Assembly (NCBI GenBank): GCA_013416795.1
Contig: RQSC01000027.1
Span: 639,114-703,113, forward strand
Length of the DNA stretch: 64,000 nt
Direction of reading: 5' to 3'
DNA from: Prasinococcaceae sp. CCMP 1430
Lineage: Eukaryota > Prasinodermophyta > Palmophyllophyceae > Prasinococcales > Prasinococcaceae
Both the position numbers and the translations under genes were made by a program. Position 1 is the first letter of the stretch; each line of letters begins with the position of its first letter. Shown one piece after another: positions 47,491-56,126 of the stretch. A model generated the notes under the pieces. It searched no databases. It worked only from the letters and a program-made list of their open reading frames with translations, and was not told the DNA's origin.

Positions 47491-49067
47491 TTACGCTGGG
47501 CGGGTCCAGGACGTCTCGCCCGAGGCAGGGTTGCCGTAGTACACGCGCTTCGACGCCTCGTCGTACATCGCGCGCCAGCCCAGCGGCAGCCCGACGGTGA
47601 GCGTGACCAGGTCAGGTGCCCCCGCGGCGGCGACGACAGCGCGAACCTGCCGCGCTTCCGCGCCCTTGGACCCCTTGACACGCTTGCGATCAGGGGCCTC
47701 CTTGGGGTCCACGAAGGTGGTCTCGCCTGCCAGCTCGCGGCTCTTGGCGGCCCATTGGCTGATGAGCTTGTCCGTCTTCTTTCCCTTTGAGACCGAGCGC
47801 TTGCCACCAACGGCCGCTGCTGAGCGTTTGGCCGAAACGCTCGCTTGCTGCTGCTGCTCCTGCTCCTGCAATTGCTGTTGGCAATCGTGTCGCTGTTGTT
47901 GCTCGCGTCGGCGCTCGTCGGCCTCGTGCAGCAGCTGCTGCTGCTGCTGCAATTCAGCCGGATCCTGCTCGTGGGCTTGCCCTTGGGCGTTCTCGCCGCC
48001 TTCAGGCCCCGCGTTCTCGGCAGCGTCCGGTTGTGCGGCTGCAATCGAGGACGCGTGCGAGGCAAGCTGCGCCTGCACGGTGCGCGCAAGCTCGAGCGCG
48101 GCACTCGACAGGAAGGCAAAGCCCGTCGCAGGGCCTTCATCCTCGCACATTCCGAGGGCTGCGTGCGCGCGCGCGTCGGCGTGTCAGGTAATTCAGCAAC
48201 GCCCAGCGACGCGCGCGCGCGCGAGCACGCACAGGCACACGATCCGCGACCGCGCGACCGCGCGGCTCACCCCTCCAGTCAGCCACGCGCATCTCGAGTT
48301 CGATGGCAAGGCGTACAGCAGGCGGTACCGCAGCCGCCATGGGTGCGAGCGCGGCCGCCGCGTCCGACTGCAGCGCGGCCTCGCCGAGCGCAACTGCCTC
48401 GCGCAGCGATGCAAATGCCGGATCGGGGGCAGCCGCGGGCGCGGGCGCGTCCGAGCCCGCGCCGGCGGCTGCTCCCGAGGCTGTGCCATTCGCCGCTTCG
48501 ATGTGTTCCACATCGTCGACCTGGACGCGCGTACTTTCCCCTGTGCCGCCCGCTCGAGCAAGTCGCTCGCCCTCGCCGGCCTCCGCAGCGGGAAGCTCCC
48601 ATTCAGACGCGCCCGTCGCGGCGTTGTAATAGTAAGGCTGGCCAGTCTGATCGTCGAGGTGCTGCTCCCATCCTGTGGGCAAGGCTGGTGCCACCGCGCT
48701 CTCGGGCTGAGCTGCTCGCTCGGCGGTGTCGCCGTCGTCGAAGCCGCCGCCATCGTCGTCGTCGTCGCTGCCCGCGCCGTATGCCTGCACCAACGAGAGT
48801 GCGCCAGCCGTCGCCGCGCCTCCGTCTTTGCCGCCAGAGTCTGCGCCTGCGGCGGGCGCCGTGTCCCTAGCCGCCGGCGTGCCGCCGTGGCAGGCGTGCG
48901 CGACCATCCACGGCGAGGGCGCCGCTGCCTGGGCGTCGGCGGGTGCGGCGCGGGTCGGGACGGCCGCGCCACGCGGCGTCGCGGCGCTTCTCCTCGAGCA
49001 CGGTGCCGCCAATGCCCGGCGGCGGCGCGGCGTCGACCGCGGCCGCGGACGCGGGCGCGCGCGGCAT
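47491..49067 (-). CDS. Two-WW-domain protein (FNBP4-like)
   Basis: Two exons are clear: about 48950-48271 and 48134-47491, joined by GTGAGC and a GATGAAG acceptor in phase 1. WW domain 1 is LPTGWEQHLDDQTGQPYYYN...WELP; WW domain 2 is LPLGWRAMYDEASKRVYYGN...SWTRP at the very C-terminus. Between them lie helical Ala-rich, Gln-rich (QQQQQ, EQEQQQQ) and basic regions including RKRVKGSKG, probably nuclear. An acidic LVQAYGAGSDDDDDGGG segment precedes WW1, as in FNBP4. WW domains bind proline-rich ligands, and FNBP4-like proteins link to formins or splicing. The start is uncertain: an ATG at 49067 (MPRAPASAAAVDAAPPPG) is in another frame and would need a short intron near 48990-48930. Confidence 0.68.
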
Positions 49068-49147
49068 GACGGCGCGGCGTCAGCCGGTGCAGGTGTGGCA
49101 TCCACGCAGAGGTGGGTAGGGAGGACCACGGAGCATTTTTGGAGCTG

Positions 49148-49466
49148 GCGGCGTGGCCACTGAAAAGGCCGACGGTATGTACTTGAGCGGTTGTACTCAT
49201 GGTGTGTATGTGCATCAACGGGACGTGTGCCGCGTCGATCGACGACGTGCGTTCGCTACGCCCCCCTCCTCCCCCGACGGTAGCTCGCCGACGTGTGCAG
49301 GCTGGGCGCGACCGAGCGTGGGCTTGAGCTCGCTCGCGACAGGCCGGTACAGGAATGGGCAGTGTCGCCTCAGGAGTTGCAATTACAGGAGCGTGTGGAG
49401 GTGGGCTGGGGCGCTTACTACTGTACAGTGAGGCCCACCCCGTCCGCGGCTGGCGAGCAGCGCATA
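49148..49466. other. Short intergenic stretch, no gene seen
   Basis: It lies between the start region of the WW gene and the stop of the nuclease-helicase gene, both on the minus strand. It probably contains the WW promoter and the nuclease-helicase 3' UTR. No motif stands out. Confidence 0.4.
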
Positions 49467-52400
49467 TTAGGCATTCTCGAGCAGCTGCAGCAGGCGCTCG
49501 GCGGTGGAACGGCGCGCCATGCAGACGGTGCCACCCTCGCGGAGGCGGCCCGCCAGCTGGATGAGGTCGCCGTCGGTGAGCAGGCCCTCAGCGTCGGGAA
49601 AGGTCGACACTCGCGTGAGCGCCTTGCAGTCGAGGCCGTACACGCACGAGTAGTCCACGTACAAGCGGCGTACGGGCGTGGCGCCGGCAGACTTCGCCGG
49701 CGGGCGCAGCAGCAGCGGTGCGAGGTGCAGGCGCAGCGCGCGCGCGTTCTCGCCGGTCTCGCGCGAGTCGATGTACGCCACGCCCGCGCTGAGCATGCCG
49801 GCGGTGTCGTAGCCGAGCGAGTCGACCGAATCGACGTACAGCGTGGCCTTGCCGGCCTGGAAGGAGCGCGGCGGGCCCTCGTCCTCCTGCCCGGGCTCGG
49901 ACTTGAGCTTCGCCAGCCTCTTCTGGTACTTCTCGAGTGCCTTGGTGGTCTCAGCGTGCAGCTTGCGCACCTCGGTCTGGCGCTCGTGCGTGGCGTAGCG
50001 CAGCGCGCGTTGCGCGGGGTGTGCGCACAGCACCAGCTCGATGCCGTTGTGCTCGGCGGGCTCGGCGTACTTCGGGCCGACCACGCCGACTTCCACCTCC
50101 TTCTTGTTCTCGCCATCCGAGTCAATGTACGTCACGCGCACGGCGAACTCCTTGGTGCCGCCGCCGACGCCCGACTCGAGCTTGAGCGGGCGCTCGGGCG
50201 GCAACAGCCACTCGGCCTCGGCCGGCGTGAGCGTCGCCGACGCAAGTACGCTGAAGTCCGGGCACAACTTGAGCAGCGCGCGCATGCGCTCCTTGACGCC
50301 CGGCCACCCGAAGGCGAAGTTGGGCTCATCGATGAACAGGCACACCTTGCCGCCGTTGATGCTGTTGCTCTGCATGAGCAGCTCGCCGACCGAGTCGATA
50401 TCGCAGACGATCATGCCCGGGTTGCCCACAGGAATGCCCTTGGCGAGCCGGTCCTTGTGCTCCTTGGCCTGGAAGGCCGCCAGCTCGAGCTGCTGCGTCA
50501 TCGAGCCGCTGGTGCCGCCAGCGCCCTTGGTGCGCAGCGTGCGCACCGAGTACGGGCGGCGTACCTCGAACTGCCCGGCCGACGCGCGGGTGACAACCCA
50601 GTACACCACACCCGCGACCTCGCACTCCTGACCGACGCGGATGAGCACCTGCTTGGTGGGCACACTGTACACGAGCACGTAGCCCATGTCGTTGAGGACC
50701 TTGTGAAGCAGCACGGCACCGCACGTCTTGCCACTGCCGGGCGGCGTGGCCAGGCCGAGGATGGGCGGCGCGTCCTTCTCATTGTTGATGTACTTGGCGA
50801 AGTGCTTCGCGTGCTTCAACATGAAGTTTTGCGTCTGGTTTGGTTCGTACGACCCATCGAGAAGCTTCTTGCCAGTGATCATGCGCTGGCGGATCGCGCG
50901 CGACGCCTGCTTGGCAGCCTGGTGCCTGCCCCTGCCGTCGAGCTCGTCCCACTCCTCCTTGGTCACGCGCCCGACCTCGGTCATCTCCTCCGAAAGCTCG
51001 TACGCCGAGCCCTCGTGGCGGCGAAGGCGCCGCAGCACGTCCACATCATCCTTGGCGAATGTGGGCGCGATGGCCTCTAGAGCGTCCATCTTGTCCTCGT
51101 CCGACCCGCCACTCGCCCAATAGCTGAGCAGCGTGTGGAAGGTGTCGCACACCAGGACCTCCCAAGTCTTCTCCTTGTGGCGGGGCGGCGCGGCGGCGTC
51201 CTCGGGCGCGGGCTCTGATGCGGTGTGCTCCACGAGGACCTTGGCCGTGGTGGCAGAGAGCTCCTGCAGCGTATCGCGGCCGCCACGCTCGAGCACGGGC
51301 TGCAGGCATCGCCTGCGGATGGCCACGTTGGCCGGATGGTTCCACGCCTCCCGCGGGCCACCGCGCTCGGTGGTGGTGCCCGTGGCGAACATGTGATGGA
51401 TGTACGCGGGGCAGAAGGGATCGCGCAACGGCTTGACCATCCAGAACATGGCCTTGTATGCGGCCTTGTCGTCGACCGTCTTGGCGGTGACCCTGTCGAC
51501 GGCCTCGCCAAACGCCTCGCGCCTGTCGACGTCGGCAAGCAGGTTCTCAGCGCCCTTGCCGGTCATCTTCAGCTCCTTGGTCAGGAATGCCGCCTCGGGG
51601 CGATCCAGCTTGCCCGCGTGCACGTGCTCGAGCAACGCCTTGCAGGCCGCCGCGAGGCCGCCCTTCTTGCGCCACTCGCGCTCGATCTTGCCGCGGTTCT
51701 GGAGGCCCTCGTCGGCCTTGTACAGAGCACCCACGAGGTGCATGTCCAGGGCGGTCTTGCATCCCAGCATCATGCGGCACGCCTCGCCGTCCCACACCTC
51801 GGCGTCGGCCTGAGCGTCGCCGAGGGTGAGCGTCTCGATCATCGCGAGACGGGTCACGCCATAGCCGAGCAGGTCCGGGTTGCTCGTGAGCACCGCAGCG
51901 ATGCGGTCCTGGTGGCGGCCCCAGTACGCCAGCATCGCGGCGTCCGACCGGCCGCCCTCCATGCGCGCGAGGTACACCTCGTGCGCGCCTCCCTCCATGA
52001 GGCCAACCTGCGCGGCGCCCAGCGCGGCAGCTGCAATGTCAGCGCCCCGCACGAACGCACGGGCAGGGCAGGAGCGAGCGGCGGCGCGCCAGCGCGCGAG
52101 CGCGTGTGCCTCAGACATCCAAGGATGGGGCCCCAGCCGCGCTCAAGCCCCGGCAGAGGCGAGCACGATCGGTTGCTGGTACTGCGAATGTGTTTGGAGA
52201 AATGGAAACCAGACTTGTGTGTCTTCCTCATAGGCAACGCAGCGCTCCGCGCACACGCTCGCCCCTGCGCGCACTTCAAGCGACGAGGACGTACCATGAA
52301 AGCGACATTGGCGAGCGGGCCGTGGTCGATGCCCTCCCGCTCGCGCGCGGTGCCCTCATCAGCGGCAGTCGCGGACGCGTCCATGACGACGACGACGGCG

Positions 52401-52867
52401 AGGCCCGACTGGCGGAGCTCCTTCACAGTCTCCTTGGCCGCATGGCGCATGAGCGTGTACGACACGGGCTGGCCGTGCTCGTTCTGTGGCGGCAAGCGCC
52501 CGCAGCGAGGCGGCGCTCATGTCAGCACACGCCTCGGGCGCGATGACGCGACCAGAGAGCGCACTGCAGCACGCCAAGCGGGCGACCGCGCGAGCGCACT
52601 GCCTGCAGGCACGCTTGGCCCAGCCCCCCGAATTAGGGTTGTCGGTGGTCGGCGCAGCCGCCTCGGCGCAACGCCCACGGCGCTCGGCACAGCGCGCGGC
52701 CGCACCTCTTTGTAGTCCAGCGGCGCGCCAGAGTCCCTCCATAGGCGATGCGCCAGCGCGGGCCCGTCCACGAGCAGCACGGAGCGCTGCTCGGTCGAGA
52801 CCTTTGCGAGGCGGCCCGGGATGTACGAGTGCTTGGCGAGCGCCGACAGCAGCCCCGAGATCGGCAT
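49467..52867 (-). CDS. FEN1/XPG-like nuclease fused to an SF2 helicase
   Basis: The reading is join(52706..52867, 52295..52483, 49467..52109), 997 residues, all junctions phase 0 (GTGCGG...CCACAG; GTACGT...TCTGAG). Exon 1 (MPISGLLSALAKHSYIPGRL, then VLLVDGPALAHRLW) matches the XPG/FEN1 N-domain. Exon 2 has VVVVMDASATAADEGTARERE, the second acidic site. Exon 3 opens with an XPG-I-like stretch: HEVYLARMEGGRSDAAMLAYW and AVLTSNPDLLGYG, where canonical EADAQ and DSD are altered to EGGRSD and NPD. The last ~480 residues hold an SF2-type ATPase: GLATPPGSGKT, CLFIDEPNFAFG, VLASATLTPAEAEW and IQLAGRLREGG. Nuclease activity may be weakened; helicase motifs look intact. No standard family has this order, as far as I know. 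A role in DNA or RNA processing is inference. Confidence 0.72.
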
Positions 52868-53598: not shown

Positions 53599-55539
53599 CT
53601 AGTCATCCTCCACGAGCGCGCTGGCCTCCTCCGCAAGAGCCTCAAGCTTCATCGCAACCTTGGGTTTCAGGAGCTCCATTGCGCGCTCGGCGCCCTCGGC
53701 CGCTGCCTCAGCTGCTCGCGCCGCGTCGCCCTCGCCCCCACGAGCGAGAAGAGCGCGCGCGAGCCGCTCAAGCACGTGGTACTGCGCGTTGCCGAATGCA
53801 GCTGCCTCGACGTCCTGTTCGTATCCCCAACCGTCGACATTCGCGGCGAGTTGAAGGTAATGGACCTCGTCGTCCGCACTAGTCGCGAGCCCCGCGAGCT
53901 CGAGTGCGGCGTCGCGGTCGCCACGAGAGGCCATCTCGCGCGTCAGCCGCTGCACGAGCGCCGACGCAGTGCCTGGGTCGGCAGAGGTGTCCACGGAGAG
54001 CTCGGGACAGTTTGCCCATTCCTGACCACCGAGCAGGCACTTCAACGCAGCGCAGGCCTCGACGCAGGGCACCCCCGGCGCGCCCGCGGCCGCGCTGCAC
54101 AAGTGGAAGAGCGCCGCCGCGGGATCAGGAAGCTGATTCTCGTTGCACGCCGCTTGGCCACAGCCGTGAAGACGCGCGAGCTCGAAGTGCACGTCGGCCT
54201 GATGGGCCAGGCGCTGTGCGTCAAGCGCGACAGCGCCCTCGCCCTCGCCGGCGCCCTCGTCCGAGCAGCCCCACGCGGACTCAGGCGCGTCTCCATAGAA
54301 GGGGGCGAGGTCGTCCAGCGTCACCACCAGGTCGGCCACGGCCTGCGCCCTCTCACGCGTCTCCACCGCGCGCGCTTCGCAAGAGCGCACGGTGCCAAGC
54401 GCCGTCCGTGCATCGAGCGTAGACGAAGGTGTGGCAAAGTGCGCAGAGTGCGTGGCGAGCGCCGCTGCCACGAGCGGCGCGAGCGGGAAGCGCGGCAGGC
54501 CGAGCCGCGACGCCAGCGGGCGATGAACGTACGTGCTGAAGAAGTGCGCGAAGCCTCGAACGCCTAAGTTGCCCTCTCCGTAGTTCTTCTTGTCGCGCGA
54601 GTGAATCTGGGGGTCGGTGTAGAGGTCGCCCACGCCTTGAATGTCGACGATGATGAGCTCGCCGCCGCTGGCGTGGTACGTGAAGTGCGAGAAGAGCTGC
54701 GGTGTCGTGCGCATGTGCTCATCGACGAATCCGCTGTTGTTGTTGTGCTTGATGTACTCCCCCTCGACGAGGCGTTCCACGGCGAACAGCGAGGGCTCGC
54801 CGCACGCCGCTCGATTGGGCATCTCGAAGTACGACCCTTGAAGGAAGTCCACTTTCTTGGGCGGATCCAGGTCGTTGAACCGCTCCGCCCACAGTTTGGA
54901 TTCCATTTGCAGCACGACATCATCCGCGTACGCCTCGCGCCCGACGCCCTCTTGCTTGTACTGCTTTGCCACGTAGTTGCTCGCGTGCTCCCAGTCCATT
55001 GAGTAGCAGGCCTTGGAGCCTGGCTGCTGGGACAGCTTCTTTAGTCGGTAGCACTGACGCATGGCACCCTCGGCGAACGGTTCGCGCTCCATCTTGATGA
55101 GCATCTCAATGGTGGACCACGTGCGAGTGGCGGCGTTGTAGTCGTGCCGCAGCGCGAGCTCCGTGGGCAGGTGCGTAATGCCGCGGTCCGCCCACGGGTC
55201 GAAGCGCGCCGTGTTCAGCCATACCTCGGTTGCCTTGCGCTGGGCCGCCTGCCAGCGCGCAGCAACCCCCACGGCATCGCTCACGCAGGTGACCTCGCCA
55301 TCCCCCGCCCCATCCGCCGCACCTTCATCCCCTGCGGCGATGCGAACCGCCTCGATGGCGCCGGCCTCGGCAAGCAGCGGCACGAGGTCCGCCTCTGCGA
55401 CGGTCGCGCGCCCGCCGAGCAGCGCGCGCAGCGCCGCGTCGGCGACGCGCAGCCGCTTCGCGCCCGCACGGCCGGGCGCGTCGACATCGGCCGCGTCGTC
55501 TATGTCCAGCAGCTGCACCTGGATCGGGGAAGGCCTCAT
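53599..55539 (-). CDS. EEF2K: Elongation factor 2 kinase (alpha-kinase) with C-terminal helical repeats
   Basis: A single frame of 646 residues. Alpha-kinase landmarks include EPFAEGAMRQCYRLKKL, NYVAKQYK with the ATP-binding Lys, RLVEGEYIKHNNNSG, LFSHFTYHASGGELIIVDIQ and the loop GVGDLYTDPQIHSRD with catalytic Asp, then NLGVRGFAHFF. This set is diagnostic of eEF2K, which slows translation elongation by phosphorylating eEF2. The C-terminal ~270 residues are helical, with LGG.EW and GNAQYHVLERLARAL segments in the place of the Sel1-like repeats of eEF2K. The N-terminal ~110 residues are not like the animal calmodulin-binding helix, so Ca control cannot be claimed. The start ATG at 55539 is 587 bases from the divergent enolase gene. 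Confidence 0.9.
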   Translation of the reverse strand: MRPSPIQVQLLDIDDAADVDAPGRAGAKRLRVADAALRALLGGRATVAEADLVPLLAEAGAIEAVRIAAGDEGAADGAGDGEVTCVSDAVGVAARWQAAQRKATEVWLNTARFDPWADRGITHLPTELALRHDYNAATRTWSTIEMLIKMEREPFAEGAMRQCYRLKKLSQQPGSKACYSMDWEHASNYVAKQYKQEGVGREAYADDVVLQMESKLWAERFNDLDPPKKVDFLQGSYFEMPNRAACGEPSLFAVERLVEGEYIKHNNNSGFVDEHMRTTPQLFSHFTYHASGGELIIVDIQGVGDLYTDPQIHSRDKKNYGEGNLGVRGFAHFFSTYVHRPLASRLGLPRFPLAPLVAAALATHSAHFATPSSTLDARTALGTVRSCEARAVETRERAQAVADLVVTLDDLAPFYGDAPESAWGCSDEGAGEGEGAVALDAQRLAHQADVHFELARLHGCGQAACNENQLPDPAAALFHLCSAAAGAPGVPCVEACAALKCLLGGQEWANCPELSVDTSADPGTASALVQRLTREMASRGDRDAALELAGLATSADDEVHYLQLAANVDGWGYEQDVEAAAFGNAQYHVLERLARALLARGGEGDAARAAEAAAEGAERAMELLKPKVAMKLEALAEEASALVEDD

Positions 55540-56126
55540 CGCGCGCCCGCGCGCCCGCGCGCCGCGCGTCCGCTGTGGCGGGCGACACAGCCCCCTTCCC
55601 CCCCACCCCCTCCTCCCACCCCACCGGCGCGCGCGCCCGCCCAACCGCACCTCGCCGGCGTCCGGTGTCGAGGTTTCCTTCTCGAGCACTTGGGGTTATC
55701 ATTTAGGGTTCAATTCCCAGTCGCGACCCGACGTCGCACACCCGATCCATTGAATCATTTCCCCACGGGAGCGTCATCCTTGCGCCGAAGCACCATCGCG
55801 GCGAGCAGCTGGCAGTTCGCGGTTGACCCGTGCTCTCACCTGGCTGTGACCTGGGCCTTCGTAGGGCGACGCGTCCGCCTCCGCCGGCCGAGGTCCAGCC
55901 AGCCGGCCGCGTGGAGGAGGGTTCATGGTCCAACCCTAAACATCCAACCCCACGTTTTTTTTTTTTTTTGCGCGCGCGAGCGCCGCGTTTTTCCGGCGGC
56001 CGAACTGCGCGCTGCTGTGACTGACTGCGGCGCAGGCGCGGTGTTGATGCTGACGTCCGGCACACCGCGCGCCGCAGACGCCGCCGCCCCCGCCCCGCCG
56101 GCCCGATCGCCCACCCCCCCGCCGCG
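55540..56126. other. Divergent promoter region between eEF2K and enolase
   Basis: Telo-box-like TTTAGGGTT (55702-55710) and AACCCTAAA (55932-55940) lie in opposite orientations, each 160-200 bases upstream of one of the two divergent starts. A 15-base T run (about 55955-55969) lies between the second motif and enolase. No gene is seen. Confidence 0.5.

Follow-up and report, generated by a model that had tools for sequence, protein, structure and literature searches.

FEN-type nucleases are normally separate enzymes. In archaeal Hef, a helicase of superfamily 2 (SF2) and a structure-specific nuclease of the XPF type share one chain. The bacterial protein PhoH2 places a PIN-type RNase ahead of the PhoH RNA helicase, also in one chain (PMC4826407). 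Mkt1, which acts in silencing, is described as a FEN-like PIN protein that has lost catalytic residues and probably has no nuclease activity; the two of six that it keeps are not needed for silencing, and the passages describing it mention no helicase (PMC7026591). We describe here a gene on the minus strand (52867..49467) of a 64,000-nucleotide stretch of Prasinococcaceae sp. CCMP 1430 (contig RQSC01000027.1; hereafter, the window), which encodes a predicted fusion of a FEN/EXO1-type domain to an SF2 helicase. Relative to Hef, the nuclease belongs to another superfamily and the domain order is reversed. PhoH2 is alike in domain order but differs by a VapC-type rather than FEN-like PIN domain, by its PhoH ATPase and by its toxin-antitoxin setting, and the loss of catalytic residues in Mkt1 is also seen here. 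Among open-licence full texts, judged by titles and the beginnings of abstracts, we found no report of a FEN-type nuclease followed by an SF2 helicase, and the statement of the original prediction that no described family has this order stands within that literature. The green-lineage nuclease-helicase family is apparently undescribed.

The protein would be the product of a single nuclear gene of a green alga. It has 963 residues in our corrected gene model and would consist of an N-terminal domain of the FEN/EXO1/GEN1 superfamily (~320 residues) joined through a poorly ordered linker to an SF2 helicase (the C-terminal ~480 residues). The best explanation of the whole, to which we assign a probability of roughly 0.7, is that a FEN/EXO1-type domain with a crippled centre is fused to an SF2 motor, the protein family as a whole being perhaps linked to RNA or translation. 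The nuclease-helicase architecture itself is firmly established. A protein search with the originally predicted 997-residue model yielded 14 proteins (E cut-off 10), including P0003 (953 aa), which aligns with 100% of the query at 49% identity (E 1.4e-277) and with the N-terminal domain at 48%. P0003 contains both parts in a single uninterrupted frame of ~2862 nt on a contig of 2962 nt, a size suggesting that the sequence derives from an mRNA. P0001 corresponds essentially to the window protein minus its first part, and P0002, of the same extent, is 84% identical. With residues 520-1270 of P0004 as query, 73 proteins were found at E up to 0.01. In 15 of these the same helicase is preceded by a related N-terminal domain; nine belong to our alignment A6 and six were found with the A6 profile (P0004, P0014, P0021, P0025, P0056 and P0063). 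With the acceptor corrected, the N-terminal part of the window protein reaches 51.4 bits against a profile of nine other proteins. The protein searches scored only the ~8000 candidates that had the most words in common with the query, and land plants and other eukaryotes are thus not excluded; a search with alignment A2 returned P0003 only, which we read as a limit of this word sampling given the 73 proteins obtained with P0004.

The N-terminal domain covers residues 1 to ~321 (51396..52867, minus strand, with both introns inside the span). Profile and structure tests both assign it to the XPG-N/XPG-I fold of the FEN/EXO1/XPG/GEN1 superfamily, and EXO1 and FEN1 are its closest solved structures. 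The model of P0003 is predicted to adopt a FEN-type fold over residues 2-314, with an alignment that reaches EXO1 residue 340 and is what bears on the C-terminal, helix-turn-helix part of the nuclease fold after XPG-I, and the FEN/XPG fold first proposed for this part is retained rather than replaced by another. The domain resembles the Rad2/XPG enzymes EXO1, FEN1 and GEN1 in its fold, in an XPG-N part followed by an XPG-I part, in most acidic positions and in its start (MPISGLL, against the MGxxGL type of its relatives); it differs by the replacement of two of seven acids and by the covalently attached helicase. Signals under the Pfam cut-offs agree with this assignment: of 11 domains compared, six matched XPG_I and two matched XPG_N (E cut-off 5; the best E was 5.4e-4). 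The segment between the positions of FEN1 D86 and E158, where FEN1 and EXO1 have the helical arch, is 48 residues long in the window protein and 46 in P0003. The same segment measures 48 residues in L006, a Rad2-type locus of this genome, but 85 in the EXO1-type locus L007. Elsewhere in this genome, XPG_I matches comprise L005 (contig C124), L006 (C120) and L007 (C62); by eye, L005 looks like XPG, L006 like an enzyme of the GEN1 type and L007 like EXO1; no canonical FEN1 exon is listed among these matches, which are lower bounds.

The SF2 helicase occupies residues ~490-963 (49470..50891, minus strand) and matches the SF2 fold in the models of P0003 (484-953) and of the window's exon 3 (370-846 of 846). 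Two RecA-like lobes are accompanied by the expected motifs in order: motif I TPPGSGKT (residues 538-545; 50724..50747), Ia YSVPTKQVLIRVGQECE (564-580; 50619..50669), II FIDEPN (675-680; 50319..50336), III LASATL (705-710; 50229..50246), V VDYSCVYGLDCKALT (901-915; 49614..49658) and VI QLAGRLREGG (934-943; 49530..49559), all on the minus strand, with YSVPTKQVL at the place of Ia. All the motifs that had originally been quoted are present in the translated frame. The window protein stays under the Pfam cut-offs for DEAD and ResIII (DEAD, 12.5 bits relative to 26), and some relatives with a W2 domain pass them (e.g., P0019, P0061 and P0063). RECQL5 was the top structural match of the P0003 model with Foldseek and of the exon-3 model with VIA, and a second structure comparison of the P0003 model placed eIF4A first. 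Within ~2 Z units lie eIF4A, Mfd, Prp2 and BLM for the P0003 model, and RECQL5, Ski2, Mtr4, Prp2 and WRN for the exon-3 model. We attempted to name a single SF2 subfamily (DEAD, Ski2-like, RecQ or DEAH), but the matches were too close together to do so.

We then compared the window protein to its relatives in the green lineage. The helicase core is homologous to that of P0004-P0014 (E 4.4e-26 to 3.7e-33 with the 997-residue query). These unnamed green-algal proteins, such as P0012 of Ostreococcus lucimarinus and P0014 of Chlamydomonas sp. UWO 241, are 36-41% identical to the window helicase in the matched part and share its motifs, but in them motifs III and IV are farther apart and a C-terminal W2 domain is usually present. 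Indeed, the precomputed W2 assignment (PF02020) is present in 67 of the 73 proteins, the others being P0025, P0039, P0070, P0071, P0072 and P0077. Many of the 73 entries are unlabelled and many are near-copies; the labels that name an organism are all of green algae (Ostreococcus, Mantoniella, Chlamydomonas species, Pleodorina, Edaphochlamys and Volvox), and we take the shortened labels Tetstr1 or 'Tetr...' and Mesvir1 to stand for Tetraselmis and Mesostigma. The Mamiellales-like members begin just ahead of the helicase and do not have the N-terminal domain. In the helicase tree, the window protein, P0002 and P0003 form one group (100/100) separated by long branches from the rest; the tree is midpoint-rooted with very long branches between groups, and loss cannot be told from gain of the W2 or N-terminal domain. 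In the window protein the chain stops 23 residues past motif VI, with no C-terminal W2 domain. In this genome, W2 matches are listed on contigs C76 and C21 and none on the window's contig (C73), and the only matches of the Ostreococcus protein are the window gene and the W2 domain on C76, whose open reading frame (ORF) looks by eye like eIF2B-epsilon. Six peptide patterns of P0003 had no match in IMG/VR, and no match was found among the INPHARED phages. Within a helicase family of the green lineage in which several members share the N-terminal domain, these sequence comparisons place the window protein on a branch without W2.

These results suggest a role for the protein, although with unequal strength. 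The helicase motor appears intact and would use ATP to move on or unwind nucleic acid. We think it more probable that the family acts on RNA near translation, for its surveillance or decay, than that it serves DNA repair. This is the weakest step, a guess drawn from the eIF5/eIF2B-epsilon-type W2 domain with which most relatives end. Several observations weigh against our interpretation. The window protein itself has no W2 domain, and its link to translation is by kinship only. It reaches the cut-off of no Pfam nuclease or helicase model; its N-terminal 416 residues matched neither XPG_N nor XPG_I at E up to 1, and even P0003 scores 13.4 bits for XPG_I when 24.9 are needed. The profile of the window protein and P0003 alone retrieved no FEN structure from the PDB and one chance match only, as an earlier four-row alignment including the extra insert of the original model also gave chance matches only. 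The same two-protein profile matches the genome's own Rad2-type genes weakly (18% and 36%), against 70% and 81% for the profile of the W2-type relatives. In the profile search of structures, GEN1 (E 2.0) ranked under three unrelated chains. The confidence of the models is middling (mean pLDDT, the predicted local distance difference test, 67.9 and pTM, the predicted template modelling score, 0.44 for P0003; 60.7 and 0.37 for the exon-3 model). The exon-3 model gave no FEN1-type matches, but exons 1 and 2 are missing from it, and this result does not count against the fold. The FEN/EXO1 assignment runs through the W2-type relatives and the structure model. Finally, RecQ DNA helicases and RNA helicases are equally close structural neighbors of the motor.

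It is possible, although not probable, that the protein is instead an enzyme of DNA repair or replication that processes flaps or junctions like FEN1, EXO1 and GEN1, with the helicase opening the substrate. EXO1 and FEN1 being the closest structures to the N-terminal domain, the length of the segment between D86 and E158 (48 residues as in L006, and not 85 as in L007) and the first rank of RECQL5 for the P0003 model with Foldseek and for the exon-3 model with VIA are in line with such a role. The W2 domain of most relatives is otherwise found in translation factors, judging from PDB names, and most helicase matches of the P0003 model are RNA helicases, but neither argument is strong. Defence, which had also been proposed, found no backing: PADLOC assigned no family to the exon-3 ORF, and P0003, P0061 and P0012 presented only short matches to helicase motors. 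Returning to a family linked to RNA, we tentatively raise a bolder scenario, itself rather doubtful: green algae might own a class of mRNA surveillance endonucleases that combine a FEN-type PIN domain, an SF2 helicase and a W2 domain and work at translation initiation. Its cutting centre would have decayed several times (in the window clade, in a Tetraselmis-like lineage and in others, with the domain absent in Mamiellales), and the motor would be left attached to a junction reader that is dead as a nuclease.

The state of the metal site was read from an alignment of 16 N-terminal domains. In human FEN1 numbering, we take its seven acidic sites to be D34, D86, E158, E160, D179, D181 and D233. 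The equivalent site of human GEN1 is formed by D30, E75, E134, E136, D155, D157 and D208 (PMC5039027). The window protein is acidic at five of these seven sites (D34, D89, D139, D162 and D216, the equivalents of D34, D86, E160, D181 and D233) and changed at two, with R137 at the E158 position and N160 at the D179 position. Four of these residues lie in the XPG-I-like centre (51858..51950, minus strand; N160 at 51879-51881), and D216 lies in LYKADEGL (51702..51725, minus strand). The original description of an acidic centre partly kept and partly changed, from DSD to NPD, is correct in this alignment. P0002 has the same pattern of changed sites, and P0003 is acidic at all seven. Six sites are acidic in P0061, P0062, P0070, P0071 and P0077, which present S or G at the E158 position, five in P0024 and P0073, four in P0019, P0020 and P0021, three in P0014 and two in P0004, P0056 and P0063. 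This erosion apparently happened more than once among the green-algal relatives P0004, P0014, P0056 and P0063.

In the experiments reported for Chaetomium GEN1, each change of an acidic residue to alanine impaired cleavage, mostly by orders of magnitude, and left binding nearly unaffected, with D38A causing only a slight loss of cleavage (PMC4695337); D30N abolished the activity of human GEN1 (PMC5039027). The window protein would therefore be expected to bind its substrate but to cut it poorly, as the GEN1 mutants do, and its cutting centre is likely impaired. We propose that the N-terminal domain binds a 5' end or a branched junction and positions the motor while cutting poorly or not at all, because two of the seven metal ligands are replaced and the segment is short where FEN1 has its helical arch. 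It seems unlikely that the centre is still active, with N160 and the five acids, perhaps helped by a neighboring carboxylate, holding the metal, in which case the protein would work as a helicase-nuclease, cutting flaps or junctions after unwinding. The five ligands kept, the complete set in P0003 and the small effect of D38A would fit such activity, but most single changes cripple GEN1 and here two sites are changed, one of them to arginine, in P0002 as well. Relatives with six or seven acids (P0003 and several volvocine algae) may have kept the ability to cut. The family, with seven, six, five or fewer acids in its members and no such domain in others, forms a series in which the role of a non-cutting FEN fold beside a helicase could be studied, and relatives in Chlamydomonas species and Ostreococcus make knock-outs in laboratory algae feasible. 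The family merits attention as one that is apparently undescribed and that offers naturally graded states of its active site. The fusion of a FEN fold and an SF2 motor, in a family with a translation-factor domain, suggests that the green lineage recruited this DNA-repair fold to another use.

The gene model was revised in one respect. The original three-exon model, with junctions 52706/52483 and 52295/52109, gives an open frame of 997 residues in phase 0 throughout, and its first junction stands. Its second acceptor, 52109, is not confirmed. The 102 nt at 52008-52109, which are coding only in that model, show no difference between GC-content at third and second codon positions (GC3-GC2 = 0.00), a value reached in 0/813 windows of the same length in the exon-3 ORF. 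The alignment to P0003 presents a gap of 34 residues there (residues 119-152 of the 997-residue model unpaired). Because of these two observations we favor the in-phase acceptor GCGCAG|GTTGGC at 52008/52007, which would lengthen intron 2 and give the 963-residue protein. An acceptor near 52031 (ATTGCAG), 23 nt ahead of the chosen one, would break the phase, and a micro-exon within intron 2 was rejected since the P0003 sequence leaves no space for one. Besides this acceptor, the original prediction had missed the wider W2 family and the relative with an acidic residue at every site.

The corrected gene (49467..52867, minus strand) thus comprises three exons and two introns. Exon 1 (52706..52867, residues 1-54; GC3-GC2 0.43) has a GT donor after 52706, is colinear with MGVSGLL...LLVDG of P0003 and contains the start MPISGLL and the XPG-N part with D34 in LLVDG (52763-52777). 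Intron 1 (52484..52705, 222 nt, GT..AG) contains an in-frame stop codon and has a GC3-GC2 of -0.09. Exon 2 (52295..52483, residues 55-117; GC3-GC2 0.45) encodes VVVVMDA with D89 (52379-52381), the equivalent of FEN1 D86. Intron 2 (52008..52294, 287 nt, GT..AG; previously ending at 52110) shows no codon periodicity at 52008-52109, and exon 3 (49467..52007, residues 118-963 and stop) begins after an in-phase AG and has a coding signature (0.46 over its long ORF). The exons at 52295-52867 could form a separate small gene mistakenly joined to the helicase gene, as the weak Pfam signals of the N-terminal part might be taken to hint, but this is very improbable given the uninterrupted frame of P0003, the same domain order in 15 relatives and the agreement of exons 1 and 2 with exon 3 in codon signature and phase; as far as sequence can tell, the single gene originally claimed holds.

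Two plus-strand frames, 49293-51080 (595 codons) and 51225-52715 (496 codons), overlap the gene in antisense. Mirror frames antisense to GC-rich coding DNA are common, and we take these to be by-products of such DNA (the GC-content of the window is 68.2%). Upstream on the same strand lies an alpha-kinase (PF02816, E 9.4e-49; 53599-55689). Downstream, also on the minus strand, the ORFs 47491-48150 and 48137-49129 each encode a single WW domain (PF00397, E 7.5e-10 and 9.6e-12) and are probably exons of one gene. Elsewhere in the assembly (24.5 Mb, 145 contigs), contig C136 carries two different complete rbcL-like ORFs with 40-42% GC and a third copy that runs into a masked stretch (L011, L012 and L013). 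We take the rbcL of this contig to be of the green type. One of the copies looks like a land-plant sequence, and for this reason the contig may be mixed or contaminated.
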